Of a stretch of DNA of 64,000 nt, positions 6,999 through 20,012 are shown piece by piece. How positions within the stretch are numbered: position 1 is the first letter of the stretch; each line of letters begins with the position of its first letter. The notes below the pieces were generated by a model. The model worked only from the letters and a program-made list of their open reading frames with translations. It searched no databases and was not told the DNA's origin. The translations under genes and the position numbers were made by a program. The stretch comes from Christiangramia gaetbulicola (lineage in GTDB: Bacteria > Bacteroidota > Bacteroidia > Flavobacteriales > Flavobacteriaceae), in contig NZ_QBKQ01000002.1 in NCBI RefSeq assembly GCF_003054225.1, positions 744,001-808,000 on the forward strand, read 5' to 3'.

Positions 6999-7226
6999 AA
7001 CTATACTAGTCTTTGGAAAAGCCCATCATCACTATGTTTTTTCGATGTATCTAAAATTAGGTAACCGAATAGGTAACTTTCACTTATTTTGAAATTCAAT
7101 TTTAAGATACGAAATTATAAATTTATATAAAACTGCGAAATTAATCCTTCGGATAAAGAAAAGTCAAACCTGCGCTTATCCCGGAACATACTCGAATAAA
7201 AATGTATATTGCTGTGGATATAACAT

Positions 7227-7236
7227 GTTATGTGGC
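7227..7236 (+). repeat. Left-most cassette core site (R'-type half site)
   Basis: GTTATGTGGC is the exact reverse complement of GCCACATAAC at 7955-7964, which ends the first cassette. This is the relation expected if both came from the single attC of one circular cassette. Unlike the other sites it is not preceded by the ACC of the conserved right arm but by TAACAT, so it may be an attI-like or degenerate entry point. Confidence 0.7.
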
Positions 7237-7298
7237 ATTAAAAGAATACGTAGAACTAATAGAAAATAACCGATTCGTCCTTCAGATAATTTTCAACT

Positions 7299-7469
7299 AT
7301 GGTTAATATTTTAATTGGTTCCCTTTGCATAATAGCCGGAATCATCCTAATCATAATTTATATTAAATTGGTAAGAGAAAATAAAAGAGGATCAACAATA
7401 AAATTATTGGGTGCTGGAATTGGAGCTTTGTTGATCGGAATTTATTTAATTAAAGAAGAGATAAATTAA
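7299..7469 (+). CDS. Small membrane protein in cassette A
   Basis: A 56-residue ORF starting at ATG 7299 with two predicted membrane helices: residues 3-22 (VNILIGSLCIIAGIILIIIY) and about 36-50, separated by a basic loop (KLVRENKRGS). It ends 15 bp before the nuclease-like ORF, so the two may be translated together. I recognise no family. Membrane microproteins beside nuclease-like proteins are sometimes toxin or defence partners, but nothing in the sequence shows that here. Confidence 0.55.
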   Translation: MVNILIGSLCIIAGIILIIIYIKLVRENKRGSTIKLLGAGIGALLIGIYLIKEEIN

Positions 7470-7483
7470 AGAACTAAATAAAT

Positions 7484-7963
7484 TTGATCGATCTTATTAA
7501 AAGATTATTAATTGAATTTTTTGAAGAAATTCAAATTGAAAAGTGGCCTGCTAAAGAAAGAGAGTTGGTCAGTAGATTTGCTTTTTCGAAACTAGTAAAA
7601 AACACAAATAAAGAATCTGAATTTTATGATCCAGCACAAATAGGATTGGAAGTAAGAGTAGAACAAATTAAAGGTGAAAATAGAAAGGAATTCGTCTGCA
7701 AAGATTTGATAATTTGGAAAGAACCAAATTCAAATGCCTGGACAGAATTCAACGTTCCTAAAGTAATTATGGAATGGAAACATAATAATTCTCAACCTTC
7801 AAAATATGATATCGATTGGCTAAAAGAATACACAAAGCTAAACGGTGAATGTTTTGGAATAGCAATAAATATTGACACTAACAAAAAACTTAAATTAACA
7901 GCAACCTTAATTCACAAAGGAGAAATTAAAGAAGAAAATTGGCTGCTGCTTAACGCCACATAA
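7484..7963 (+). CDS. PD-(D/E)XK nuclease-like protein, cassette A
   Basis: A 159-residue protein. The only start near the conserved part is TTG at 7484 (an in-frame stop is at 7475-7477). It has a nuclease-like pattern: an N-terminal helix with an acidic residue (ERELVSRFAFSKLVK), LIIWKEPNS preceded by Asp in CKDLI, then the strand VIMEWKHNN giving a D...E-x-K signature, and a later helix/strand pair CFGIAINID. This suggests a PD-(D/E)XK fold and possibly DNA cleavage, as in small restriction-like proteins. The stop codon TAA lies inside the R'' core of the following attC-like site, as is common for integron cassettes. Family call is tentative. Confidence 0.6.
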   Translation: MIDLIKRLLIEFFEEIQIEKWPAKERELVSRFAFSKLVKNTNKESEFYDPAQIGLEVRVEQIKGENRKEFVCKDLIIWKEPNSNAWTEFNVPKVIMEWKHNNSQPSKYDIDWLKEYTKLNGECFGIAINIDTNKKLKLTATLIHKGEIKEENWLLLNAT

Positions 7964-8092
7964 CAACGGCTCATCGCCAATAACGGGTATCATCGAAAAG
8001 GTGTAATTTTAGAAACCAGGAAATAAAACAAATAAGCCGACAACTCCGCGTCCCAATTCCCGCAACTGGCGATAGCCGAGACCGTTAGCGGC
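7955..8092 (+). repeat. attC-like site A (138 bp)
   Basis: R'' GCCACATAAC (7955-7964), spacer AA, L'' CGGCTCATCGCCA (7967-7979), a variable centre, L' TGGCGATAGCCG (8067-8078), spacer AGACC, R' GTTAGCGGC (8084-8092). L'' and L' are perfectly complementary except for one extra C (7972) in L'', as with the extrahelical base of integron attC sites. The predicted cassette junction is within the GTT of R'. The inner CGGG (7984-7987) and CCCG (8059-8062) can extend the stem. Confidence 0.82.
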
Positions 8093-8165
8093 AAGCTTTT
8101 TACAAAGTTTTCACTTAAACAACTTGACTAAATAATGATTAAATTTAAAAGATATTAAAAATCTT

Positions 8166-9077
8166 ATGATAAAAAGATCATTTTTAACTTTAGCGATTAC
8201 CTTATCTATATTTTCATGTAAATCAGATAAAAAAGAACCTGAAAAAAGTGTAGAAAAAGAATCGGTAGAAAAGTGGCAGGCAAAAGCACCCGCAACTCAA
8301 CCGTTCGGCTCTGAAGCTTTTGACAAATCAAACAATACGACCTTAAGATGGTTAGGTATGGCTGGTTTTTTAATAAATAGCCACGGTTCAACAATTATGA
8401 TAGATCCATTACTCGGTGGGTTTGATATGCCAATCCTAATAGATTTTCCAATTAAATCTGACAGTGTTCCTAAATTAGATGGCGTTCTTATTACTCATAG
8501 CGATAACGATCACTATAGTGTTCCAACAAATCTAGAATTGAAAAATGTTACCGAGAAATTTCATTCAACAATTTATGTTGATTCTTTAATGAGTAATAGG
8601 GACGGACTACCATCTGTTGGCCACGAAATAGGAGAAACTTTTGAAATTGGTAATTTTAAAATTAAAGTAACTCCAGTTGACCATTCTTGGCAAAATGCTT
8701 ATCCCGATGCAAGTGACAGGGTTTTCAAGGATGAAGATTCTTGTGGGTTTTGGATAGAAACTCCGGATGGTACAATTTGGGCCACTGGTGATTCCAGGTT
8801 AATGCCAGAGCATTTAAATATGCCTACTCCCGATGCAATATTATTTGATTTTTCAGATAGTGAATGGCATTTTACTTTAGAAGGCGCAGTGAAATTAGCT
8901 AATGCTTATCCACAGTCTAAATTATTGTTGCATCATTGGGGATCAGTTGATGCGCCAGATTTTCCTCCCTTTAATGCTAATCCAAAAGATTTATACGACC
9001 TAGTTGACAATCCGGAGAGGATTGTAGTTTTGGCGCCGGGAGAACCATTTATTCTTAATCAAATCGATCATAAATGA
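8166..9077 (+). CDS. MBL-fold metallo-hydrolase lipoprotein, cassette B
   Basis: The 303-residue protein begins with a lipoprotein signal (MIKRSFLTLAITLSIFSCKS, Cys at residue 18) and has a UlaG-like metallo-beta-lactamase fold: LRWLGMAGFLI then IMIDPLL, metal motif THSDNDHY (HxxxDH), VDHSW, ATGDSR and LLHHWG. It is probably a periplasmic hydrolase of a phosphodiester or lactone-like substrate; the substrate is unknown and nothing supports true beta-lactamase activity. It overlaps the next gene by 4 bp (ATGA), so the two form an operon within one cassette. Low GC and position between two attC-like sites mark it as acquired. Confidence 0.86.
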   Translation: MIKRSFLTLAITLSIFSCKSDKKEPEKSVEKESVEKWQAKAPATQPFGSEAFDKSNNTTLRWLGMAGFLINSHGSTIMIDPLLGGFDMPILIDFPIKSDSVPKLDGVLITHSDNDHYSVPTNLELKNVTEKFHSTIYVDSLMSNRDGLPSVGHEIGETFEIGNFKIKVTPVDHSWQNAYPDASDRVFKDEDSCGFWIETPDGTIWATGDSRLMPEHLNMPTPDAILFDFSDSEWHFTLEGAVKLANAYPQSKLLLHHWGSVDAPDFPPFNANPKDLYDLVDNPERIVVLAPGEPFILNQIDHK

Positions 9078-9502
9078 AATTTATAAAAGTAAGTTTTATC
9101 ATTCTATCATTAATATTCCTAACTAACTCTTGTGGAGTTAGAAATAACACAAAAAATGAAGTTAGCCCAAACATGCTTATAAGAATCTCTGAAATAAAAA
9201 TATATCCGCAATATATCGAGGAGTATAAGGCTATACTAAAAAAAGAAGCAGAAGCATCTGTAAGAATAGAGCCTGGTGTAATATCGATATTTCCAATGAT
9301 TCAAAAAGGAGATTCTACCGAGATAAGAATTTTAGAAATTTATGCCAATAATCAAGCTTATAAATCACATTTAGAAACACCCCATTTCAAGGAATATAAA
9401 ACAACTACATTGAAAATGGTAGAATCTTTAAAACTTATAGATATGGAGGCGATTGACTCTCAAACAATGCCAAAAATTTTTAATAAAATTAATAACCAGT
9501 AA
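9074..9502 (+). CDS. ABM-domain lipoprotein, cassette B
   Basis: A 142-residue protein with a lipobox (FLTNSCG, Cys near residue 20) followed by an antibiotic-biosynthesis-monooxygenase-like ferredoxin-fold domain (about residues 33-115): LIRISEIKIYPQYIEEYKAI, EPGVISIFP, RILEIYANNQAYKSHLETPH and FKEYKTTTL. ABM domains are small dimeric alpha/beta folds acting as monooxygenases or binding proteins. Translational coupling to the MBL lipoprotein suggests they act in the same periplasmic process. Confidence 0.85.
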   Translation: MKFIKVSFIILSLIFLTNSCGVRNNTKNEVSPNMLIRISEIKIYPQYIEEYKAILKKEAEASVRIEPGVISIFPMIQKGDSTEIRILEIYANNQAYKSHLETPHFKEYKTTTLKMVESLKLIDMEAIDSQTMPKIFNKINNQ

Positions 9503-9525
9503 AATCAAGTTTATTACTTCAGCCA

Positions 9526-9663
9526 GCCGCTAACATCGGTTCATCGCAAATAACGGGTATTACAGGAAAAAGTGTAATTTTAGAGACCAAGAAAGAAAAC
9601 AACTAAGCCGACAAGTCCGCGTCCCTACTCCCGCAACTTGCGATAACCGTAACCGTTATGTGC
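9526..9663 (+). repeat. attC-like site B (138 bp)
   Basis: R'' GCCGCTAAC (9526-9534) is the exact reverse complement of the R' opening this cassette (8084-8092). L'' CGGTTCATCGCAA (9537-9549) pairs with L' TTGCGATAACCG (9638-9649), with the same single extra C. R' GTTATGTGC is at 9655-9663. The CGCAA/TTGCG pair replaces CGCCA/TGGCG of the other sites on both strands, which is compensatory change. Confidence 0.82.
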
Positions 9664-9680
9664 AAGCGGATTTCAACATT

Positions 9681-10385
9681 ATGAAGTACTACTTAGGATC
9701 ATATTATTTATTAAAAATAAAACCTGCTGATTTTGGAACAATTAAAGGTTCTAAAATCTTTACATGCTGTAACTGCATAAATAAATCTTATTTAGATTCA
9801 TGGTCAATATCGTGGTCGGAAGATGGAAAAAATATCAATAAAAATATTAGAAAGGAATTTAAACTTTCAGAACAATTGATAAATAAAATTCACAATTGGA
9901 CAGATAAAAAATTAGAGGAAAATAAAATTGGTTGGATCAATAATTTTTCTGATCTAAAAACAGTTTTAGATTATAAAAAATCATTTTTTAGTGAAGAAAA
10001 AGATTTACAAATATTGAGTATTAATTTTCCAGAAACAGAAAAAAATCAAGCTTTAAATATTTTATCACCAACTAATCAAAAATCTGGCGAAATTGGAATT
10101 TATCAAAATCTAAAAAAAGAAATTAAAGAGAATACCTTAGAAGAACTACTTGGATTTGACCTTATTGGGATAGAACCAGGTGGAGATTTTCACTCATTTC
10201 ATTGTCATGATTTAAAAGATGATTTAATTTCAAAATTTGAAATCAAGATTAACAAGAATGGATTGATTCAGGAAAATAAAAACTGGAAAGAAATGGTAGA
10301 TTATATGAATAATTCTGACAATGGATTCGAACCAGTTCCTTGGTTTTTCGTTAAAGTAAATCGAGTAAAAACCGCCAGCACATAA
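9681..10385 (+). CDS. Hypothetical protein, cassette C
   Basis: I choose the ATG at 9681 (MKYYLGSYYLLKIKPADFGT, 234 residues), 26 bp inside the cassette. There is no signal peptide or membrane segment. It contains a CCNC cluster (FTCCNCINKS) near residue 30, a lysine-rich middle, and a C-terminal segment LLGFDLIGIEPGGDFHSFHC, followed by a stretch with WFFVKVNRV, that looks like a globular domain of the kind seen in immunity-type proteins; I do not recognise the family. The stop TAA falls in the R'' core of the next site. Confidence 0.7.
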   Translation: MKYYLGSYYLLKIKPADFGTIKGSKIFTCCNCINKSYLDSWSISWSEDGKNINKNIRKEFKLSEQLINKIHNWTDKKLEENKIGWINNFSDLKTVLDYKKSFFSEEKDLQILSINFPETEKNQALNILSPTNQKSGEIGIYQNLKKEIKENTLEELLGFDLIGIEPGGDFHSFHCHDLKDDLISKFEIKINKNGLIQENKNWKEMVDYMNNSDNGFEPVPWFFVKVNRVKTAST

Positions 10386-10515
10386 CAACGGTTCATCGCC
10401 AATAAGCGGCACCGTTAGTAAGAAAATAATTAACTTGACCAACAAACCAATACTAAGCCGACAAATCCAAGTCCCCTACTCCGCCAACTGGCGATAACCG
10501 AGACCGTTGTGAGGC
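10378..10515 (+). repeat. attC-like site C (138 bp)
   Basis: R'' GCACATAAC (10378-10386) matches the reverse complement of R' at 9655-9663. L'' CGGTTCATCGCCA (10389-10401) pairs with L' TGGCGATAACCG (10489-10500) with one extra C. R' GTTGTGAGGC is at 10506-10515. The centre is of a second subtype (inner GCGG/CCGC instead of CGGG/CCCG) shared with sites D and F. Confidence 0.82.
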
Positions 10516-10528
10516 ATTTTACAATTAG

Positions 10529-11107
10529 ATGGTAGTAAATAAAATTTTAAAAAAATATAAATTACTTAGATCATTTGAAGTCGATTTAAATGTTGAAAAA
10601 GAAGCATTTATTAAAGAGTTAAAAAACTTCACCGAAAACGGATATTACACCCCCTTCTTAATAATGCTTGACGTTTTCAAATCTGAAAACAAAATGTACA
10701 TCGGAAATATAAAATCGAACAGTTTTAAAATCCGAGAGAGATTTAAAATTGACAATTCATGGCAGAACAATTTTGCAACGGTAAAAGCAGAGTTTTACGA
10801 AGAAAACGATAAACTGAAAATTAAAACTATAATCCAGGGAATGGAATTCTTTCCTTTCATTCTAAGAGCTTTAATTTTTGTTATTTACTTAGTTATAATG
10901 TTTCTTCTGGTAATTGAATTATTAATTCCACCAATAGATTTTGAGATTGAAATAGCATTCCTTTTACCTCCACTCATGCTGACAATTTTTGTCGGGTTTT
11001 TGACTTATTTACCGTACAGAATTGCAAAAAATAATATCGTAAATAAGAAAGATGATCTTGATTTAATATTTCAAGGTATAGAAAAACGCCTCACAACAAA
11101 GAACTAA
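10529..11107 (+). CDS. Hypothetical two-helix membrane protein, cassette D
   Basis: A 192-residue protein, start ATG at 10529, 14 bp after the R' core. The first 105 residues are soluble (acidic/basic, beta-rich), followed by two hydrophobic helices at about 109-133 (FILRALIFVIYLVIMFLLVI) and 143-165, and a short basic tail. Its natural C-terminus was altered by the IS110 insertion: the frame enters the IS (ACA ACA AAG AAC TAA), whereas the uninterrupted attC-like site would give a few different last residues. Family unknown. Confidence 0.7.
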   Translation: MVVNKILKKYKLLRSFEVDLNVEKEAFIKELKNFTENGYYTPFLIMLDVFKSENKMYIGNIKSNSFKIRERFKIDNSWQNNFATVKAEFYEENDKLKIKTIIQGMEFFPFILRALIFVIYLVIMFLLVIELLIPPIDFEIEIAFLLPPLMLTIFVGFLTYLPYRIAKNNIVNKKDDLDLIFQGIEKRLTTKN

Positions 11108-11125
11108 GGTAAAATCCAAGTACTT

Positions 11126-12130
11126 CTAAGCTAATTTCGACATATGATTTTCCTGGTAATATGTTCCTGATTTGGCTATGGCAAAAGCCTGTTTTAGTAG
11201 CTTGTTACACACGGCAATCAATGCCAGTTTCTTACTCTTTCCTTGTTCCACAATGCGTTCATAAAGTTCTCTGCAGGCCTTGTTATGTTTACAAGCGGTA
11301 AAGCTACAGAGGAATAGTAGGTTTCGCAGTTTCCGGTTCCCTACTTTGCTGATTCGGCTACGCCCTCTTACACTGGTTCCGGATTGTCTGATCGTCGGTG
11401 TAATCCCTGTAAAACAGCAAAGCTGCCTGGCATTCTCAAAACTGGTAAACCCGTCTGTAAGTACAATTAATAGCATCGCCGTTTTCTTTCCCATTCCCGG
11501 AATGCTGGTTAATTGCTCCAGTTGTTCTTTCTGGGTCTTTCTGACTAAGGATTCCAATTTGGATTCGATCTGATCTAATTCCTTCTCTAATTGCTTTAGC
11601 GTTCGGACTAGTGATCGACTTACAGTCTTTGAAGGTGTTCCGAGAGCTTGCTCCCCATGGATCTTATTCTTAACAGCAGTGCGTTGTTTCAGGTATAGAT
11701 CCTGAAGACTCAGTAGCTGTAAAGATTCAGCCTGAATAGCATTCCTGGCTGTATACAATGGAACTTGTGTTGCCTGGGCATACTCACAGATCGCTTTAGC
11801 ATCACTCTTATCAGTCTTGATCTTGGAGAGTTTCATCTGAATAAAACGCTTGACCGAAAGTGGATTCACAACCGACACCGTTATACCTTTCTCATACAAA
11901 TACTGGGCTAAACGGTAGTGATAGTAACCGGTGGCCTCCATGACCACCAGGCTGTCTTTCTGAATAAACTTCAGTAAGCCTTTAAAGCCCTTTACATCAT
12001 TAGAGAACTGATCATGCTTGTTATTCTGATCAATTACATCAAAGAACGATTTACTAATGTCTACTCCGTAAAAATGTTTAATTTTATCCATATAAGAATG
12101 ATTGGAAAGAACAGCTACTTTGGTTTTCAT
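11126..12130 (-). CDS. IS110-family DEDD transposase/recombinase
   Basis: The 334-residue protein has the N-terminal RuvC-like DEDD domain: FYGVDISKSFFDV (first Asp), VVMEATGYYHYRLA (Glu), and KIKTDKSDAKAICEYA (the D-x-x-D pair). A coiled region (about 165-205) follows. The C-terminal Transposase_20 domain contains LTSIPGMGKKTAMLLI and the serine segment GITPTIRQSGTSVRGR, where the conserved serine nucleophile of the family lies. No frameshift or stop is visible. The start may be ATG 12130 or the internal Met at 12091 (MDKIKHFYGVDIS). Confidence 0.93.
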   Translation of the reverse strand: MKTKVAVLSNHSYMDKIKHFYGVDISKSFFDVIDQNNKHDQFSNDVKGFKGLLKFIQKDSLVVMEATGYYHYRLAQYLYEKGITVSVVNPLSVKRFIQMKLSKIKTDKSDAKAICEYAQATQVPLYTARNAIQAESLQLLSLQDLYLKQRTAVKNKIHGEQALGTPSKTVSRSLVRTLKQLEKELDQIESKLESLVRKTQKEQLEQLTSIPGMGKKTAMLLIVLTDGFTSFENARQLCCFTGITPTIRQSGTSVRGRSRISKVGNRKLRNLLFLCSFTACKHNKACRELYERIVEQGKSKKLALIAVCNKLLKQAFAIAKSGTYYQENHMSKLA

Positions 12131-12132
12131 CG

Positions 12133-12254
12133 ACTTTAAAACGAGATCCAGGTCTCACAGAACTAAACGAAATTAAAGTAGAAAAGAGAGGGTATTATCA
12201 TTGTTGACGGAATCTCTAGTTCCCACGGTTCATGTAATCTTATTCCTCTCTTTT
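12133..12254 (-). ncRNA. Candidate IS110 bridge RNA with target- and donor-binding loops
   Basis: Read on the minus strand, a 10-bp stem (AAAAGAGAGG at 12245-12254 with CCTCTCTTTT at 12182-12191) encloses an internal loop and an inner hairpin GGAA..TTCC. The 5' loop strand contains ATGAACCGT (12225-12233), identical to the LE-side flank (12301-12309), and the 3' strand contains CAACAA (12201-12206), matching the other flank (11094-11099). A second stem (ACTTTAA/TTAAAGT, 12133-12139 and 12173-12179) with inner GAGA..TCTC contains TTAGTTCT (12159-12166), identical to the element's own right end (11100-11107). Target loop first, donor loop second, is the order known for IS621. Structure drawn by eye. 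Confidence 0.65.
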
Positions 12255-12446
12255 GTTCTTTCTGGTTATACATTCAAAATTTAGAGAAATTAAACTTAAG
12301 ACGGTTCATCGCCAATAAGCGGCAGCATAAGTAAGAAAATAATTAACTTGACCAACAAACCAATACTAAGCCGACAAATCCGCGTCCCCTACTCCGCCAA
12401 CTGGCGATAACCGAGACCGTTGGCAGCAAGCATTTGAAAATTCCCG

Positions 12447-13007
12447 ATGATAGAAATCTTCAAAATAGAAAAAATACCATCTGACTTTTTAGAAGCTCTT
12501 AGGTTATCAATGAATTATGGATTTATCTCAAAAAAAGAAATCTGGGATTGGGCTTTAAAAACTATTCAATTTTTCGACAATTATGATCCCCTACTTTTAG
12601 ACCTGGTAAAAGGAAAAGAACCGGATGGAAGACAAATTGATTATGTTTTGAAAACAAGAACTGAAAACGAAGAAACCGAAAATTCATTCAGGTTATTAAT
12701 TAGTTCATTAAATGATAAAATTTCTAACAAAGAATTATCTTTAGAAGAAGTGGCAAATAAAATATATAACTTAACTCTTGAACTAGAAATAAAAGAGTCT
12801 GAAAGAACTTTTCTCTATCACTTCGAGAATGACCTATATTTGGCAAATTCTCAAATTAAAGGAGATTTAAATTCGATTAAAGAAAAATTAAAAAATACAA
12901 TTCAAATTTATCAGGAACTATCATTCGAAAATTATAAAAATTGGAGTTTGATTAATAGTGAAATAGATTCTTCAATAGCACGTTTTGAAAGTCAACCTAA
13001 AAAATAA
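12447..13007 (+). CDS. Hypothetical helical protein, cassette E
   Basis: A 186-residue acidic, largely helical protein starting at ATG 12447, 28 bp into the cassette. No signal or membrane segment is visible. Residues 60-100 are charge-rich (KTRTENEETENSF, SNKELSLEEVANKIYN) and 110-180 look coiled. I recognise no family. It overlaps the next ORF if that one uses its upstream TTG start, suggesting a two-gene cassette whose products may act together. Confidence 0.65.
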   Translation: MIEIFKIEKIPSDFLEALRLSMNYGFISKKEIWDWALKTIQFFDNYDPLLLDLVKGKEPDGRQIDYVLKTRTENEETENSFRLLISSLNDKISNKELSLEEVANKIYNLTLELEIKESERTFLYHFENDLYLANSQIKGDLNSIKEKLKNTIQIYQELSFENYKNWSLINSEIDSSIARFESQPKK

Positions 13008-13023
13008 AACTAAAAACCTATTA

Positions 13024-13407
13024 ATGATTTTAGGTATTCTAATCAATTTAGGAATTGGGCTAATATTGATTGTTCAATCTTTCAAAGGACATTCAAGCTT
13101 TGGGTTTCTATTTGGTGCACTTATGCCTGTTCTTTCTATATTATTTTATTCAAATTATTTAAAATTAAAAAGTGATAATAATGAGAAGGACTTCAAAAAA
13201 GTAGTTTTCCGTCCTAGCTTATTAATAGGATTTTTAATTTTTATAACTTCCATCGTAACTTCATTTTTGGTTTTAGATTTTGAATATTTAGAAAACACTT
13301 TAATTGAATTTATTCAGTTTTTCGGAGCCATATCAGCACTATTCCTTATTCCAAATCTGATTTATCAAATTATTATATTTCAACTATACAAGAAGAGTCT
13401 GAACTAA
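13024..13407 (+). CDS. Hypothetical four-helix membrane protein, cassette E
   Basis: From the ATG at 13024 this is 127 residues (140 from the in-frame TTG at 12985, overlapping the previous gene). It has four hydrophobic segments: about residues 2-17 (ILGILINLGIGLILIV), 24-42, 62-84 and 98-117 of the shorter form, with short polar loops. Family unknown. It ends 6 bp before the R'' core of the next attC-like site. Confidence 0.65.
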   Translation: MILGILINLGIGLILIVQSFKGHSSFGFLFGALMPVLSILFYSNYLKLKSDNNEKDFKKVVFRPSLLIGFLIFITSIVTSFLVLDFEYLENTLIEFIQFFGAISALFLIPNLIYQIIIFQLYKKSLN

Positions 13408-13413
13408 ATGCCA

Positions 13414-13549
13414 GCTGCCAACAACGGCTCATCGCCAATAACGGGTATCACCGAAAAAGTGTAATTTTAGAAACCAGGAAATAAAACAAATAAGCCGACA
13501 ACTCCGCGTCCCAACTCCCGCAACTGGCGATAGACGAGACCGTTACCTG
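13414..13549 (+). repeat. attC-like site E (136 bp)
   Basis: R'' GCTGCCAAC (13414-13422) is the exact reverse complement of R' at 12419-12427. L'' CGGCTCATCGCCA (13425-13437) pairs with L' TGGCGATAGACG (13525-13536), with one mismatch (A13534) and the extra C. R' GTTACCTG is at 13542-13549. The centre is of the same subtype as site A. Confidence 0.8.
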
Positions 13550-13569
13550 GAAGCTACAAAGAAATAGGT

Positions 13570-14763
13570 ATGAAGATGAATATTAAATTAACGACAATAA
13601 TAATTTTTCTACTTTCTTGCTATTTTATCCATGGTCAAAATATTCACAATTCAAATTCTAACAACTTCGATTCAATATCGAGGGATTTAAAAAGAATTTA
13701 TGAACGTAATGAATTAGCGGGTTTCGCTGTTTCGATATTTGGTAAAGACAGCATCTTTTTTCAAAGTGGGTTTGGATATGCTGATAAATCCAAAAAAATA
13801 CCATATACGGTTAGTTCAAATCAACTTATTGCATCTATTTCAAAAACTTTTATTGGTGTTTCTCTCATGATTGCAATAGAGCAAAACAAAATGAAACTGG
13901 ATGATGATGTGAATGAATATTTGAATTTCAAAGTAATAAATCCAAATTTCCCGGATACGAAAATAACATTAAGACACCTAGCTAATCATACTTCAGGTAT
14001 TACTGATCCTAAATCATATAATAAAACTTATTTATTCAGTAAAAAATTAAAGAAAAAAAATTGGCCCCAGCAATGGCATGATTATTTAAAAATATATAAT
14101 AGAAATAAAGATATACCTCTAGAGAAATTTTTGGAAAATTGTTTATCTGAAAAAGGGATTTGGTTCGAAGATGACACCTATTCTGAAAAGGCTTCAGGTA
14201 CAGATTATGAATATAGTAATTTAGGATCCTCTCTACTAGCTTTAGCAATTTCAAATGCAGTAAAAGAGTCATATAAAGAATTTGTCAAAAAGAATATTTT
14301 TCAACCTCTTAGAATGGATGCCACAAGTTGGGATAATAATTTTGTTGCCGAAGATTTAAGAGTTACATATTACATCGAAAATGGAAATCCTATTCCAGAT
14401 TATAGAATTTTAACTTATCCAGATGGAGGAATTTATAGTAGCGTTGGGGACTTGACCAAATATTGCCAGGAAATGATTAAATGTTCGATTGGTCAAGGCA
14501 AAATATTAACAAAAGAATCCTTTTTAACAATGACAAAGCCTCAATCTATATCTAATGATTTTCCAGATGCTATTTGTTGGGATTTGTCATTTGCTCCTTT
14601 GATTGGTCATGCCGGGAATGAATTTGGTAGCTCCACTTTAATGTATTTCAATCCAAAATCTGGAATTGGACAAATACTTTTTTCAAATAATTCGATTGGA
14701 TCCCTAAAACAAGAGAAAGCATTCTTTGATATTTTCAATCTTCTTTTCAAATATGATTTTTAA
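13570..14763 (+). CDS. Serine hydrolase, beta-lactamase class C-like, cassette F
   Basis: The 397-residue secreted protein (signal about 1-22, ending FIHGQ) belongs to the serine beta-lactamase-like family. Motifs seen: S-x-x-K in IASISKTFIG (about residue 90), LRHLANHTSGI, the Y-x-N motif in YEYSNLGSSLLA, and H-x-G in IGHAGNEFG. Such proteins are mostly esterases, D-amino-acid peptidases or penicillin-binding-like hydrolases; resistance should not be assumed. It is the single gene of its cassette, starting 28 bp after the R' core, with low GC. Confidence 0.88.
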   Translation: MKMNIKLTTIIIFLLSCYFIHGQNIHNSNSNNFDSISRDLKRIYERNELAGFAVSIFGKDSIFFQSGFGYADKSKKIPYTVSSNQLIASISKTFIGVSLMIAIEQNKMKLDDDVNEYLNFKVINPNFPDTKITLRHLANHTSGITDPKSYNKTYLFSKKLKKKNWPQQWHDYLKIYNRNKDIPLEKFLENCLSEKGIWFEDDTYSEKASGTDYEYSNLGSSLLALAISNAVKESYKEFVKKNIFQPLRMDATSWDNNFVAEDLRVTYYIENGNPIPDYRILTYPDGGIYSSVGDLTKYCQEMIKCSIGQGKILTKESFLTMTKPQSISNDFPDAICWDLSFAPLIGHAGNEFGSSTLMYFNPKSGIGQILFSNNSIGSLKQEKAFFDIFNLLFKYDF

Positions 14764-14777
14764 AATTAAAATGCCTG

Positions 14778-14913
14778 CAGGTAACAACGGTTCATCGCCA
14801 ATAGACGGCAGCGTTAGAAAGATAATAATTCACTTGATTAACAAACCAATACTAAGCCGACAAATCCGCGTCCCCTACTCCGCCAACTGGCGATAACCGA
14901 GACCGTTGTGCAC
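14778..14913 (+). repeat. attC-like site F (136 bp), last recognisable site
   Basis: R'' CAGGTAAC (14778-14785) is the reverse complement of R' at 13542-13549. L'' CGGTTCATCGCCA (14788-14800) pairs with L' TGGCGATAACCG (14888-14899) with the extra C. R' GTTGTGCAC (14905-14913) should recur as GTGCACAAC at the end of cassette G, but no such partner is seen before 16 kb, so the last cassette has lost its own site. Confidence 0.8.
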
Positions 14914-15109: not shown

Positions 15110-15817
15110 CCCTATGAAATAATTCAACAAGAAAATTTCGTTCCTCTCGAGATGATGGAATTGTCCCTCAATACCTTGTTTTTAAAACAGAGGATGAGTG
15201 TTCCGAAATTTATAATAGAAACATCGGTATTAGAAATGAAGAACAAGCTCAAAAATTTAGTGAATTAAATTTTGATTTTGAGAAAAATACATTAGTAATA
15301 ATAACCTCTGGATATGACAAAAATTGCTGTAAACCAATTATAAAAATAAGTATATCGAAATAAAGGAAGAATTTATGTGACTTTCGATATTGGAGAATTG
15401 GATAATTCTTTAGAAGTTTTGAGTCAATCTTATATTCTCCACAATAAATTTACTCATATTAAAACTTTAGATTTTTACAGGACGATCGAGGAAGAATATA
15501 AACTTCATAAAATTGATCGGAAACTTGAAAAACTTAAAAATAACGAGGAATTCATTTCTAATAATTCCAGGAGTAATAATCTAAAAGAACTTATTTTTAA
15601 GGCAATCGATATTTCAGATTCATTAGATGATGTGATCCATGAATTGGAAAATCAAGTAATCAAAACCAGTATTGGTAGAGGAATATCATTTACAGATAAA
15701 AAAGGTGCTTCTTTTAAGGGTTCAGCAATAGATCGAAAACTGTCATTATCAGGTATTAAGAACTTGTTATCATACAAAGAACAAGAAAAGAGATTTAACA
15801 GAGGTCTTTCACGCTAA
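15110..15817 (+). pseudogene. Decayed region with relaxase-like C-terminal remnant
   Basis: Several frames must be joined. About 15160-15363 encodes a coherent stretch (DDGIVPQYLVFKTEDECSEI ... CCKPIIKISISK) ended by TAA. A shift of frame then leads into 15377-15817, open for 146 residues. The end of that ORF, with GRGISFTDKKGASFKGSAID followed by RKLSLSGIKNLL and FNRGLSR, resembles the C-terminus of Bacteroidota relaxase/mobilisation nucleases. No nuclease core (HUH motif) is present. The segment therefore looks like fused debris of a mobile element at the end of the cassette array. Confidence 0.5.
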
Positions 15818-15883
15818 TTCAATAATATAAATTATTGTAAAGCATTAGTTAATAGTCTAAGGTGTTTGTAAAAATCTAAAAAA

Positions 15884-15910
15884 AGGCCTGGACTTTATTA
15901 ATCCAGGCCT
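15884..15910 (-). terminator. Terminator of the DUF1338-ALDH transcript
   Basis: A perfect 9-bp stem AGGCCTGGA / TCCAGGCCT (15884-15892 and 15902-15910) with a 9-nt loop, followed on the minus strand by seven T residues, 33 bp past the stop of the aldehyde dehydrogenase gene. Confidence 0.9.
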
Positions 15911-15942
15911 ATTAAATTTATTAAAAGAATACTTTATCAATT

Positions 15943-17484
15943 CTATAAGTTAAATTTAATACCCTGAGCTAAAGGTAAATCAGTACCATAATTTACAGTG
16001 CAGGTTTGCCTCCTCATGTAGGATTTCCAGGCATCAGAACCACTTTCTCTCCCTCCACCTGTTTCTTTTTCACCACCAAATGCTCCTCCGATTTCGGCTC
16101 CAGATGTTCCAATATTAATATTGGCAATCCCACAATCTGAACCCTCAAAAGAAAGAAATTCTTCAACTTCTCGTAGATTCAAACTAAACAGTGCAGAAGA
16201 CAACCCTTGAGGAACATTATTATTTAATTTAATAGCCTCTTCTATTGATTTATACTTAACAATATATACTATTGGGGCAAAGGTTTCTGTTTTCATAATC
16301 TCCAGATTTAGATCTGCTTCTATAATCGTAGGAGCTACGTAACATTGTGAACAGTTATCTCCAACTAAAACCATTTTTCCACCCGAAATTATCTTTGCCC
16401 CTTGTTTTTTAGCTAATTCAATAGTTAAATAGTAATTATTCACCGCATCTTCATCTATTAATGGCCCCATATGATTCTCTTCATTCAATGGATCGCCAAT
16501 TTTTATTTGTTCAAATGCATTTTTTAATTGTCTTAGAAATTTATTGTAAATATTTTCGTGCACTATTAATCGTCGTGTAGAAGTACAACGTTGACCTGCT
16601 GTACCTATAGCCCCAAAAACCAATGCTGGCAATGCTTTTTCAATATCTGCATGTTCGGAAAGTATTATTGCGTTATTCCCTCCAAGTTCGAGAATAGATT
16701 TACCTAATCTTTTTCCTACTCGCTGAGCAACATCTCTTCCCATAGCAGTACTACCTGTCGCTGAAATCAAGGAAATACGACTATCCTCAGCCATTTTCTT
16801 TCCTATTTCTAAATCTCCCATTATTAAAGAAGAAATACCCTCCGGTAAATTATTACTTTTTAAAACCCTGGAAAAAATCTCCTGACAAACAATCGAGGAA
16901 AACGGTGTTTTTTCTGAAGGTTTCCATATACAAACATTTCCGCAAACTAATGCAATAGCTGTATTCCAGGCCCAAACCGCTACAGGAAAATTAAAAGCCG
17001 AAATAACACCTACAATTCCTAAGGGATGCCATTGTTCAAATAACCGGTGAGCAGGTCTTTCAGATTGTATTTGAAGACCATATAATTGTCGTGACAAACC
17101 CGTTGCGAATTCGCAGATATCGATCATTTCCTGAACCTCGCCATACCCTTCCTGCAGAGATTTACCCATTTCATAACTAATCAAAGTTCCTAAGGCCTCC
17201 TTTTCTTTTCTTAACTCCTCACCTAATTGTCTTACAATATTTCCGCGTCCTGGCGCTGGTATTTTTCTCCATACTAGGAATGCATGCTCAGCTGTATTTA
17301 TCACATTTTCATATCCTTCACTGGAAAGAAAACTTATTTCACCTATCTGCCTGTTATCTACTGGAGAAATTATTCTTCTACCTTTAGTTTCTTCACAATA
17401 CCTATTTTCCAATCCTGTACTGTAACTATAAAAAGGACTTTCAATTTTTAGTTTATTTAATATTTCTATGGGTGATTTTCTCAT
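15943..17484 (-). CDS. Aldehyde dehydrogenase, ALDH7/aminoadipate-semialdehyde type
   Basis: The 513-residue protein is an NAD(P)-dependent aldehyde dehydrogenase of the ALDH7 (antiquitin/AASADH) type. Seen: ISAFNFPVAVWAWNTAIALV, the nucleotide-binding WKPSEKTPFSS and ATGSTAMGR, the general base in LELGGNNAII, the catalytic cysteine in GTAGQRCTSTRR, and the ALDH7-like end SGAEIGGAFGGEKETGGGRE. Expected reaction: 2-aminoadipate-6-semialdehyde (as piperideine-6-carboxylate) to 2-aminoadipate. It overlaps the DUF1338 gene by one base. With the hydroxylysine phospho-lyase-like gene at 27552 this supplies the next step. Subfamily call is good; the exact substrate is inferred from context. Confidence 0.88.
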   Translation of the reverse strand: MRKSPIEILNKLKIESPFYSYSTGLENRYCEETKGRRIISPVDNRQIGEISFLSSEGYENVINTAEHAFLVWRKIPAPGRGNIVRQLGEELRKEKEALGTLISYEMGKSLQEGYGEVQEMIDICEFATGLSRQLYGLQIQSERPAHRLFEQWHPLGIVGVISAFNFPVAVWAWNTAIALVCGNVCIWKPSEKTPFSSIVCQEIFSRVLKSNNLPEGISSLIMGDLEIGKKMAEDSRISLISATGSTAMGRDVAQRVGKRLGKSILELGGNNAIILSEHADIEKALPALVFGAIGTAGQRCTSTRRLIVHENIYNKFLRQLKNAFEQIKIGDPLNEENHMGPLIDEDAVNNYYLTIELAKKQGAKIISGGKMVLVGDNCSQCYVAPTIIEADLNLEIMKTETFAPIVYIVKYKSIEEAIKLNNNVPQGLSSALFSLNLREVEEFLSFEGSDCGIANINIGTSGAEIGGAFGGEKETGGGRESGSDAWKSYMRRQTCTVNYGTDLPLAQGIKFNL

Positions 17485-18389
17485 TATTTCAACTGTTGTG
17501 ATTCATAGGTAGATTCAAAAATTTTATCTGCATTTCCGGTTTCAAAACCATCACGACGGTGATCCTTCTTTATTTTGGATAGGGGTAAATCGGAAAATTC
17601 CGGCAATACCAGTCGTTGAGCAAATTCAACATAACTGCCTGGTATTTCGATAACTTCTGAACCTAGAAAATTAGCTCTCACTTTACCGGCTACCGAACTG
17701 CTTTGCTTTAAAAGTCCATCTCGACTTTCCTTTATTTCTCCTCCTGAATTATTTAATTTTATTTCTATGGATTTTAAAAAGTCATTAAATTTTTCAAGTC
17801 GGTTATAGTCTTCAGGTAAATCATGGATACTTATAGTAAAATGATTTAAATAATAGCGATTATAAATTACCCAGGCAGCATATTCACTTTCTTCAAGTAG
17901 GCTTTGATAATCATCCAAAGTTGGTAATTCCCATAATGCGGAAGTAAAAAAGTCAGAAACCTCGCTTACATTTTTAAAATCTATGTAATCCACTGGGTCT
18001 GAATTTATATTTTTAGTGTATTTCTGGATAATTTTCTGGGCATTCTGACTTAAATCTGAAACCCTTAACTCACTGATAAAGATCCGTGGATATTTATTTT
18101 CTGGATGCGAATACCAAAAAGCGTTTAATTTTTTCTCGGGAAAAAAATAATAGTCTCGTTTTTCATAGCCATAATGAAGGAAAATTTTTTCAAGTGAAGT
18201 TATTCCTAGGTACGGTAACCCCAGTGTACGAAAGGCTATATGGTCATTAATTATATCTTCTTCCTTGGAAATCATTCCTTTTTCAAGCATTCCATTTATT
18301 ATTCTATATACGTCTGGAACCCTTTCTTTATATGGAATTATTAAAGAGTTTAATAATTCATTCAAATCATTTTCTGTACTGAATTTCAT
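17484..18389 (-). CDS. DUF1338 protein, 2-oxoadipate dioxygenase/decarboxylase (HglS)-like
   Basis: The 301-residue protein matches the DUF1338 family, whose characterised member HglS is an Fe(II) enzyme converting 2-oxoadipate to D-2-hydroxyglutarate in lysine catabolism. The signature NDHIAFRTLG (about residue 50) supplies a metal histidine and the substrate arginine; a further histidine lies in YLNHFTISIHDL; YFFPEKKLNAFWYSHP and PRIFISELRV are family blocks. The C-terminal segment PGSYVEFAQRLVLPEF likely carries the last metal ligand. It is coupled to the aminoadipate-semialdehyde dehydrogenase gene and lies downstream of susCD, separated by a strong terminator. Confidence 0.85.
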   Translation of the reverse strand: MKFSTENDLNELLNSLIIPYKERVPDVYRIINGMLEKGMISKEEDIINDHIAFRTLGLPYLGITSLEKIFLHYGYEKRDYYFFPEKKLNAFWYSHPENKYPRIFISELRVSDLSQNAQKIIQKYTKNINSDPVDYIDFKNVSEVSDFFTSALWELPTLDDYQSLLEESEYAAWVIYNRYYLNHFTISIHDLPEDYNRLEKFNDFLKSIEIKLNNSGGEIKESRDGLLKQSSSVAGKVRANFLGSEVIEIPGSYVEFAQRLVLPEFSDLPLSKIKKDHRRDGFETGNADKIFESTYESQQLK

Positions 18390-18410
18390 AATTCTCTAAT
18401 TATTTTAAAA

Positions 18411-18442
18411 AGTGAATTCGACCTAGATAGGTCGAATTCACT
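18411..18442 (-). terminator. Perfect 14-bp hairpin between susD and the DUF1338 gene
   Basis: AGTGAATTCGACCT / AGGTCGAATTCACT (18411-18424 and 18429-18442) with loop AGAT; on the minus strand it is followed by TTTTTAAAATAATT. It is a strong intrinsic terminator after susCD. The dehydrogenase pair downstream would then depend on read-through or on a promoter of its own. Confidence 0.88.
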
Positions 18443-18464
18443 AATGGCTAACTCAAATTTCTTT

Positions 18465-20012
18465 TTAATTAATTTCAGTATTGGTCTGTATCTCTGATAA
18501 TGGTACAGGCAGATATGAATGTTGCTGCGCGTCAAAATCAACTCTACCGGCAGCATTCATTGCCGCATCAAGCATTCCCCATCTTCTTAGGTCAAAAAAT
18601 CTAGTACTTTCGAGTGTTAGTTCCATCACTCTTTCATGTACAATTTGTTCAAATACAGCCTCTTTGGAATTTAAAGTAACGGCAGGAACATTTCCATGCG
18701 CTTCTCTCACTTGATTGATTAATTCCGCAGCCTTTTCAGTATTTCCGGTTTCATTCAAAGCTTCTGCATGCATCAATAGCACATCAGCATATCTAAGTAG
18801 AGTTACATTAAGGCCTATATATCCATTTCCTTCTACAGGTTCCGGCAGCCATTTTCTGAAAAATGCCACATCATCTTTCGCATCGGGATCACCGTAGGTA
18901 GATTCAATTAAATCATTCCAGGTACTCCCTTCCATCCTTCTGGCAGATTCGTCATTGAAATATGGATCATCAAAGTAAAGGGTTGCATATAATCTATTGT
19001 CATAAAGACCGTTCTCTGCAATCATTCCCTCTTCTTTCATTTCGGCTACTAAGCGATCATCAGCTAAAATACCGCCCCATCCCCCTATGGCCCAATCGGC
19101 TACAAACGAATGTAAACGTGTCGCATTCCAGGAAGTCGCATCACCACTTTTAAACTGCAATTCAAATATAGATTCCTTATTATTCTCGTTTTCACCATTA
19201 AACAAGCTCTTGAAGTCATCAACTAAAGCATACTGCCCGCTTTCACTAACTTTAAAAAAGGCTTCAGCTGCATTCTGATAGTCATCCCCGGTACTAGAAG
19301 AAGCATCTCCTGCTTTGTACATATATGCTTTTCCTAAATACCCCAGGGCAGCACCTTTATTTGCACGACCATAGTTCTGAGGCTGTATTTCAAAACTCAA
19401 CTTATCTGCCGCTGTTTTAAAATCCTGCAAAACAAAATCCCATACTTCAGTTCTCGTTGCCAAAGCTTTATCTAAAGTACTTGAAGTTACGATATCGTCC
19501 CTTATGATAATTTGTTCAAATAAAGTGAGTAACTTGAAATGATAATATCCCCTAAGGAAATAGGCTTCCCCTAAAATTTGTTCCCTTTCACTATCAGAGA
19601 TTTGATCTTCGGTCATTTCAGAAACATTTTTTATAACCTGATTCGAAAAATTAATTCCTTTATAATTAGTACTCCAAAGCACATCCAGGAAAATATGTCC
19701 ATTAGTATAATTGAAATTATAAATCGACATCCAGTGCGAATAATTCGTGGCATCAGGGCCAGGTAAAACATAATCTGATCGAAAATATTCCACCACAGAA
19801 CGACCTTCTTGCCAGCCATCCCAGAAATTACTTCTGGCTTCTAATTCTGAATAAGCTGCCGTTAAACCAGATCTTGCATCTTCGGCATTACGCCAAAAAT
19901 TTTCCGAAGTAAGCTGATCCGGGGGTTGCTTATCTAGATATTCATCATCAGAACATCCTATAGTCAGTAAAATACTTAATAGAAAAACGGATTTTATTAT
20001 ATATTTTTTCAT
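18465..20012 (-). CDS. SusD/RagB-family outer-membrane nutrient-binding lipoprotein
   Basis: The 515-residue protein begins with a lipoprotein signal (SILLTIGCSDDEYLDKQPPD, Cys at about 20). It has the SusD pattern: LTSENFWRNAEDARSGLTAA, the TPR-like helical scaffold (ILGEAYFLRGYYHFKLLTLF; ALGYLGKAYMYKAG), LLRYADVLLMHAEALNETGN, then INQVREAHG and the end region VMELTLESTRFFDLRRWG. Surface-exposed SusD lids capture oligosaccharide or glycopeptide ligands for the SusC channel encoded immediately upstream (11-bp gap). The ligand cannot be read from sequence; context suggests collagen glycopeptides. Confidence 0.96.
   Translation of the reverse strand: MKKYIIKSVFLLSILLTIGCSDDEYLDKQPPDQLTSENFWRNAEDARSGLTAAYSELEARSNFWDGWQEGRSVVEYFRSDYVLPGPDATNYSHWMSIYNFNYTNGHIFLDVLWSTNYKGINFSNQVIKNVSEMTEDQISDSEREQILGEAYFLRGYYHFKLLTLFEQIIIRDDIVTSSTLDKALATRTEVWDFVLQDFKTAADKLSFEIQPQNYGRANKGAALGYLGKAYMYKAGDASSSTGDDYQNAAEAFFKVSESGQYALVDDFKSLFNGENENNKESIFELQFKSGDATSWNATRLHSFVADWAIGGWGGILADDRLVAEMKEEGMIAENGLYDNRLYATLYFDDPYFNDESARRMEGSTWNDLIESTYGDPDAKDDVAFFRKWLPEPVEGNGYIGLNVTLLRYADVLLMHAEALNETGNTEKAAELINQVREAHGNVPAVTLNSKEAVFEQIVHERVMELTLESTRFFDLRRWGMLDAAMNAAGRVDFDAQQHSYLPVPLSEIQTNTEIN

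Follow-up and report, generated by a model that had tools for sequence, protein, structure and literature searches.

The window analysed here, a stretch of 64,000 nucleotides from the genome of Christiangramia gaetbulicola (G000, contig C2:744001-808000; G001-G023 denote genomes of the same genus and other labels further relatives), carries six attC-like sites of about 125 bp spanning positions 7962-14907, all of them confirmed, which very probably serve recombination in an integron-like system of cassette capture in the Flavobacteriaceae, with a recombinase that is related to, and distinct from, the integron integrase IntI. Their identification as attC-like cassette sites is supported by the covariation of the stems, the travelling of cassettes together with their own downstream site, the presence of an attI-like site and a recombinase, and the predicted stability of the bottom strand. 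The original prediction had likened each site to the single-stranded hairpin by which integron attC is recognized, and this comparison holds for folded, attC-like cassette sites but does not extend to membership in the canonical integrons, given that no protein scoring above the cut-off of the IntI profile TIGR02249 was found in G000 or in 59 relatives. The attC analogy is right in kind, while the recombinase and the site signature are different from those of known integrons.

The paired changes between L'' and L' that had been listed for the window sites are real, and the single extra C in L'', always at the same position, is borne out in all six. The reported alternation of the inner stem, CGGG/CCCG in sites A, B and E against GCGG/CCGC in sites C and D, reads as claimed, except that the first inner-stem pair is broken in site F (A.C); this uncompensated change had gone unmentioned, as had a second one in site E, where L' AGACG faces CGGCT with one broken pair. 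The assertion that covariation proves the stems was too strong for the window, because the six sites fall essentially into two sequence types and so provide few independent events, although the stems themselves are supported by sites from the whole genus. When the 150 best covariance-model matches across the genus, 148 of them distinct, were examined, 96.9% of 2812 cells were paired, compared with 28-46% when the columns were slid by 1-3 positions, and the covariation score reached 0.146, about threefold the 0.048 of shuffles and above all 500 of them; since the alignment was fitted to the structure, both figures are biased towards it, and the slid controls give the scale.

The distribution of cassettes among genomes points to their exchange as units. 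Three cassettes of G020 that are about 99% identical carry identical or nearly identical downstream sites of their own (identity 0.94-1.00) between neighbours that differ on both sides, with the break at GTT, and a cassette common to G006 and G022 has likewise kept its own downstream site (0.94-1.00) next to different neighbours, again with the break at GTT; none of 27 shared cassette pairs was colinear. Each unit would thus consist of a gene and its own downstream site, bounded at GTT in the manner of integron cassettes. In the window, the features of the array are as follows.

7166-7226, + strand: left half of an ectopic attI-like site that runs up to the crossover; it reproduces the 3' end of the recombinase gene together with TATATTGCTGTGGATATAAC, but the recombinase itself is absent; it matches the attI after the recombinase in G013 and G000, and the similarity stops upstream
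7227-7964, + strand: cassette 1, with an open reading frame (ORF) of unknown function at 7484-7963; its start at GTT 7227, GTTATGTGGC, and its end, GCCACATAAC, are complementary
7962-8086, + strand: attC-like site A
8084-9534, + strand: cassette 2, with a metallo-beta-lactamase-fold protein (8166-9077, PF12706) and an ABM-domain protein (9074-9502, PF03992), assigned by Pfam; own-end pairing GTTAGCGGC/GCCGCTAAC
9532-9657, + strand: attC-like site B
9655-10386, + strand: cassette 3, with an ORF of unknown function at 9660-10385; own-end pairing GTTATGTGC/GCACATAAC
10384-10508, + strand: attC-like site C
10506-11097, + strand: cassette 4, with an ORF of unknown function at 10529-11107; its end GCCTCACAAC (11088-11097) pairs with its start GTTGTGAGGC, as read from the sequence
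11100-12301, - strand: IS110-family element in the 5' arm of site D, with its transposase at 11126-12130 (PF01548/PF02371)
12297-12421, + strand: attC-like site D, interrupted; its 5' end is displaced by the IS110 insertion, and the R'' side lies at 11088-11099
12419-13422, + strand: cassette 5, with ORFs of unknown function at 12447-13007 and 12985-13407; own-end pairing GTTGGCAGC/GCTGCCAAC
13420-13544, + strand: attC-like site E
13542-14785, + strand: cassette 6, with a serine beta-lactamase-fold hydrolase (ORF 13570-14763, PF00144); own-end pairing present
14783-14907, + strand: attC-like site F, the last of the window array

Beyond the stems described originally, the start and the end of each cassette are inverted repeats of one another and form an outer stem that reaches to about position 17. 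In the 38 cassettes of G000, 10.7 of 14 positions pair between own ends, compared with 5.0 after permutation (maximum of 2000 permutations, 6.2), and 152 cassettes from 14 other Christiangramia genomes give 10.86 against 4.91 (maximum of 500 shuffles, 5.32). Within this stem, position 11 is A in 151 of the 152 cassettes and is faced by C in 150, an A.C mismatch that becomes a T.G wobble on the bottom strand and, in the sequences compared, is a steadier mark of the sites than the unpaired C. The same arms, with A at position 11 in 10 of 10 cases, surround an unrelated site body in G054, a member of another family, and among the 72 own-end pairs of 23 loci from outside Christiangramia, precisely this A.C combination occupies position 11 in 55, whereas shuffled sequence yields eight pairs of any kind; shuffles are the only valid control here, as an inverted repeat is symmetric and a count on the reverse strand is uninformative. 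Downstream of the recombinase, 15 of 20 further Flavobacteriaceae genera also had one or more own-end pairs bearing A.C at position 11, some of these being single pairs that could be due to chance. The idea that own-end pairing as such is peculiar to the Flavobacteriaceae system was rejected: two canonical integron arrays, G305 and G199, which served as controls after several other canonical loci had given too few sites, pair their own ends over 11-12 nt, and extended self-pairing is likewise described for canonical attC (PMC2727003), where it covers 9-11 nt, as is an unpaired G in L'' of the bottom strand. What differs is the fixed mismatch at position 11, which both control arrays lack.

The sites are associated with a recombinase gene, an attI site and a far longer array elsewhere in the genome. 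The site model scores 54 matches in G000, and about 100 kb from the window array, at C2:651,209-687,730, lies a main array of about 35 sites, the first of which follow some 1.3 kb after a single-copy gene for a recombinase of 387 aa (C2:648,702-649,865); the window array is an outlier, ectopic to the main one. In the Christiangramia loci compared, a conserved attI, TATATTnGnnnGGATATAACnnGTT, stands right after the recombinase and is joined directly to the start of a cassette, the insertion point lying 31-40 nt past the coding match of the recombinase, and the coding 3' end of the gene belongs to the conserved attI block; in G031 and G028, which represent other genera, an attI-like site is found 76-79 nt after the coding match. 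Recombinase and sites occur together: one copy of the gene is present in 22 of the 23 other genomes of the genus (G001-G022), all 22 of which contain site-model matches, from 2 in the fragmented G009 to at least 59, while G023, an assembly that is 67% complete, lacks both. Outside the genus, G030 was the only genome with site-model matches among 59 relatives. Arrays can be long, as in G019, where the recombinase is located at C1:2,189,413 and the listed sites continue up to 2,364,263, an array of about 175 kb, and many draft assemblies end just beyond the recombinase, as would be expected of repeat arrays.

The recombinase itself is a tyrosine recombinase whose catalytic residues R223, K248, H312, R315, H338 and Y347 do not vary among 21 orthologs. 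Its SAM-like and catalytic domains find their best profile and structure matches in the XerA type (NF040815; PDB 4a8e and 5hxy), with a XerA score of 217.6, and it reaches 201.6 bits with TIGR02249, below the cut-off of 265. The insertion of about 42 aa characteristic of IntI is absent: the stretch at about 211-244 of 2a3v has no counterpart, the 21 orthologs align without an insertion, and GLRxxE and HxLRH are separated by 95-97 aa, compared with 138 in IntI. In a tree with 18 Bacteroidota IntI sequences, the latter group together as a monophyletic unit (100/100), and the present recombinases make up a clade of their own (96/90); the outgroup consisted of only four long-branched Xer sequences, and the apparent sister relation of the clade to IntI is uncertain. 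Orthologs (E<=1e-70) were found in 66 of 199 sampled Flavobacteriaceae genera, nearly always in single copy.

These properties bear on the view that the repeats are attC sites of the usual kind, recombined by a usual IntI that is resident or was once present, as in a canonical integron or a cluster of attC sites lacking an integrase (CALIN). The site layout is indeed that of attC, the Bacteroidota integron G199 shares the layout AAC-AA-stem-C-stem...-GTT as well as own-end pairing, and the self-pairing and unpaired G described for attC also fit. This explanation is nevertheless improbable, considering that 84 of the 296 genomes sampled from the phylum possess a canonical IntI, none of these 84 being among the own-family genomes listed in that survey, as against none in G000 and its 59 relatives, that the recombinase heading the arrays lacks the insertion and falls in a clade outside IntI, that GTTRRRY is not kept, and that the fixed A.C is missing from the two canonical arrays. 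Very improbable is the view that the repeats spread otherwise, as miniature inverted-repeat transposable elements (MITEs) or as DNA or RNA stems acting as terminators, with chance intergenic placing and no cassette recombination; the stems lie between genes, are numerous and might also fold at the RNA level, but the units consist of a gene plus its downstream site with sharp breaks at GTT, the outer stem joins the two ends of one cassette rather than the flanks of one repeat, the arrays begin at a conserved attI-like site beside the recombinase, and an Rfam search of the window gave no match (nor did a search of the window for tRNA and tmRNA genes). Least credible of all is the proposal that the host XerC/XerD, instead of the linked recombinase, move the units as dif modules, for although both proteins are present and the XerA model gives the linked recombinase its top score, the sites are 125-bp hairpins rather than dif sites of about 28 bp, and Xer-like genes occur in nearly all relatives, even in those without arrays, whereas the linked recombinase tracks the arrays.

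Several observations weigh against an integron-like capture system. XerC and XerD are encoded in G000 as well, and the assignment of the linked recombinase as the probable acting enzyme comes from linkage and co-occurrence alone; the test of co-occurrence is weakened in turn by a site model that was built in Christiangramia and is blind to diverged sites elsewhere. The extrahelical base, which had been ascribed to every site, is not constant beyond the window, with a clear single bulge favoured in 160 of 223 genus sites (152 of the 160 at the same position, the bulged base being C in 126 and A in 32), and G054 has a mismatch at the corresponding position in most cases. Folding of each strand, as originally suggested, predicts the bottom strand, with its extrahelical G, to be more stable than the top strand in 37 of 38 sites, which would be consistent with bottom-strand specificity, yet the advantage arises partly from the scoring of G.T wobbles. 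The canonical R boxes RYYYAAC / GTTRRRY are not kept: GTT and AAC are, and position 4 is R in 150 of 152 cassettes, but T or C occupies position 5 in 101 of 152. Between neighbouring cassettes of an array, R'' and the neighbour's R' pair at 5.06 positions, not beyond chance, so that excision would need a shorter stem than integration. Cassette recombination itself is deduced from sequence comparison.

If the sites do belong to an integron-like cassette-capture system, its operation may be pictured as follows. The recombinase is encoded just before the attI-like site, at which mobile cassettes, each comprising a gene and one attC-like site, would be inserted and subsequently shuffled. A cassette would be excised as a circle, in which its own two ends could pair over about 17 nt, through GTTR, a variable arm, the A.C mismatch at position 11 and about 6 bp, in an own-end stem that would continue the L''/L' stem, in which the extrahelical base lies. 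The folded bottom strand would then be cut at the GTT box by the recombinase and joined to attI or to another site. With six sites and an attI copy but no recombinase, the window array would depend on the enzyme encoded about 100 kb away.

The recombinase additionally possesses a separate N-terminal domain of about 92 residues, for which Pfam gave nothing above its cut-off. In Foldseek the probability reached 0.99 with XPB and 0.80 with the HARP domain of SMARCAL1, yet with E values of 0.04-0.3, and the top nine VIA-align rows were XPB or UvsW with Z of 6.5-7.4, under 8; with such middling scores, the resemblance to XPB, UvsW and HARP, pointing to a HARP/XPB DRD-like domain, can be regarded as no more than a lead. 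On this basis a bolder reading can be put forward tentatively, with rather less than even confidence: a second, parallel type of integron, capturing cassettes through folded DNA, whose recombinase never had the IntI insertion and may read the fixed A.C mismatch (T.G on the bottom strand) by means of an N-terminal domain similar to those with which XPB, UvsW and HARP bind branched DNA.

The system shares with sedentary chromosomal integrons of the Vibrio superintegron type a recombinase, an attI, long arrays of mostly single-gene cassettes in the same orientation, sites that are nearly identical within a genome, a GTT crossover box, self-pairing of own ends, some defence-like cargo, and folded sites with an L''/L' stem, an extrahelical base, unequal spacers and a long variable tip. 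It differs from them in a recombinase of a separate clade, without the IntI insertion and with the additional N-terminal domain; in the position of the array, which follows downstream of the recombinase gene and shares its strand, with the 3' end of the gene overlapping attI in Christiangramia; in R boxes composed of GTT and variable arms, in which the stem extends to about position 17 and has the A.C mismatch at position 11; and in a site body that varies by lineage. The window array, with six sites about 100 kb from the recombinase, is comparable to a CALIN, except that it carries an attI copy and its sites are not canonical attC, while from XerA-type tyrosine recombinases the enzyme is set apart by its extra domain and its linkage to cassette arrays.

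The IntI insertion has been regarded as essential for integron function (PMC8138268), and one classification reports incomplete conservation of the insertion within its integron-like subgroup. IntegronFinder 2.0 lists one complete integron in Bacteroidetes proper, in Salinibacter; as surveys rely on IntI, the Flavobacteriaceae system is probably overlooked by standard integron surveys. In the literature searched, which included few subscription papers and no preprints, so that an earlier report is possible, nothing was found on integron-like arrays in Christiangramia/Gramella, nor on cassette arrays served by a recombinase that lacks the IntI insertion. Should the system work as proposed, cassette capture via folded single-stranded sites would not need that insertion, a platform for gene capture may have gone uncounted in about one third of Flavobacteriaceae genera, with arrays of up to about 175 kb and some defence-like cargo, and a natural comparison would be available for how a recombinase reads a hairpin by its shape and whether the ancestors of IntI already could.

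IS110-family elements provide further evidence that the sites are a distinct, recognizable DNA target, in that their insertion points are fixed. Elements related to that in site D occur in the arrays of G013, G011, G010 and G008; the eight copies examined of this first type all share one insertion point in the 5' arm of attC-like sites, and all six copies of a second type (four in G008, two in G005) lie in the 3' arm. IS1111-attC elements are a known case of insertion into attC sites, and the present elements resemble them as IS110-family members at fixed points of attC-like sites, differing in that two types use different arms of the Christiangramia site.

With regard to the history of the window array, the attI copy of about 60 bp stands just before the first cassette, where the recombinase gene is absent, and it is nearer to the attI of G013 than to that of G000 itself. 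The left flank of the array matches G013 and the right flank G006 (99.1% over 4.5 kb), both loci being without sites, which identifies the window array as an insertion or a junction; no examined genome had the two flanks joined as an empty site, and the attI-like copy was not found in the flank-matching loci of G013 and G006. The near-identical segment to the right of the array covers window positions 15438-20000 and corresponds to contig C5 of G006, another Christiangramia species, which suggests recent horizontal transfer.

Isolated partial attC-like arms also occur far from the arrays in G000, at C1:240376-240443, with no recognizable 5' arm, and at C1:702946-702976. In the distal part of the main array, the sites at L030 13914-14061, 14378-14525 and 15592-15730 contain extra small hairpins of the CCCGAAG..CTTCGGG type and look degenerate. 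The cargo of the main array includes several defence-like genes, namely an AbiLi/AbiLii (RloB-like) pair, an AbiJ/Abi_C protein, a PDC-M03A/B pair and a Schlafen AlbA_2 protein.

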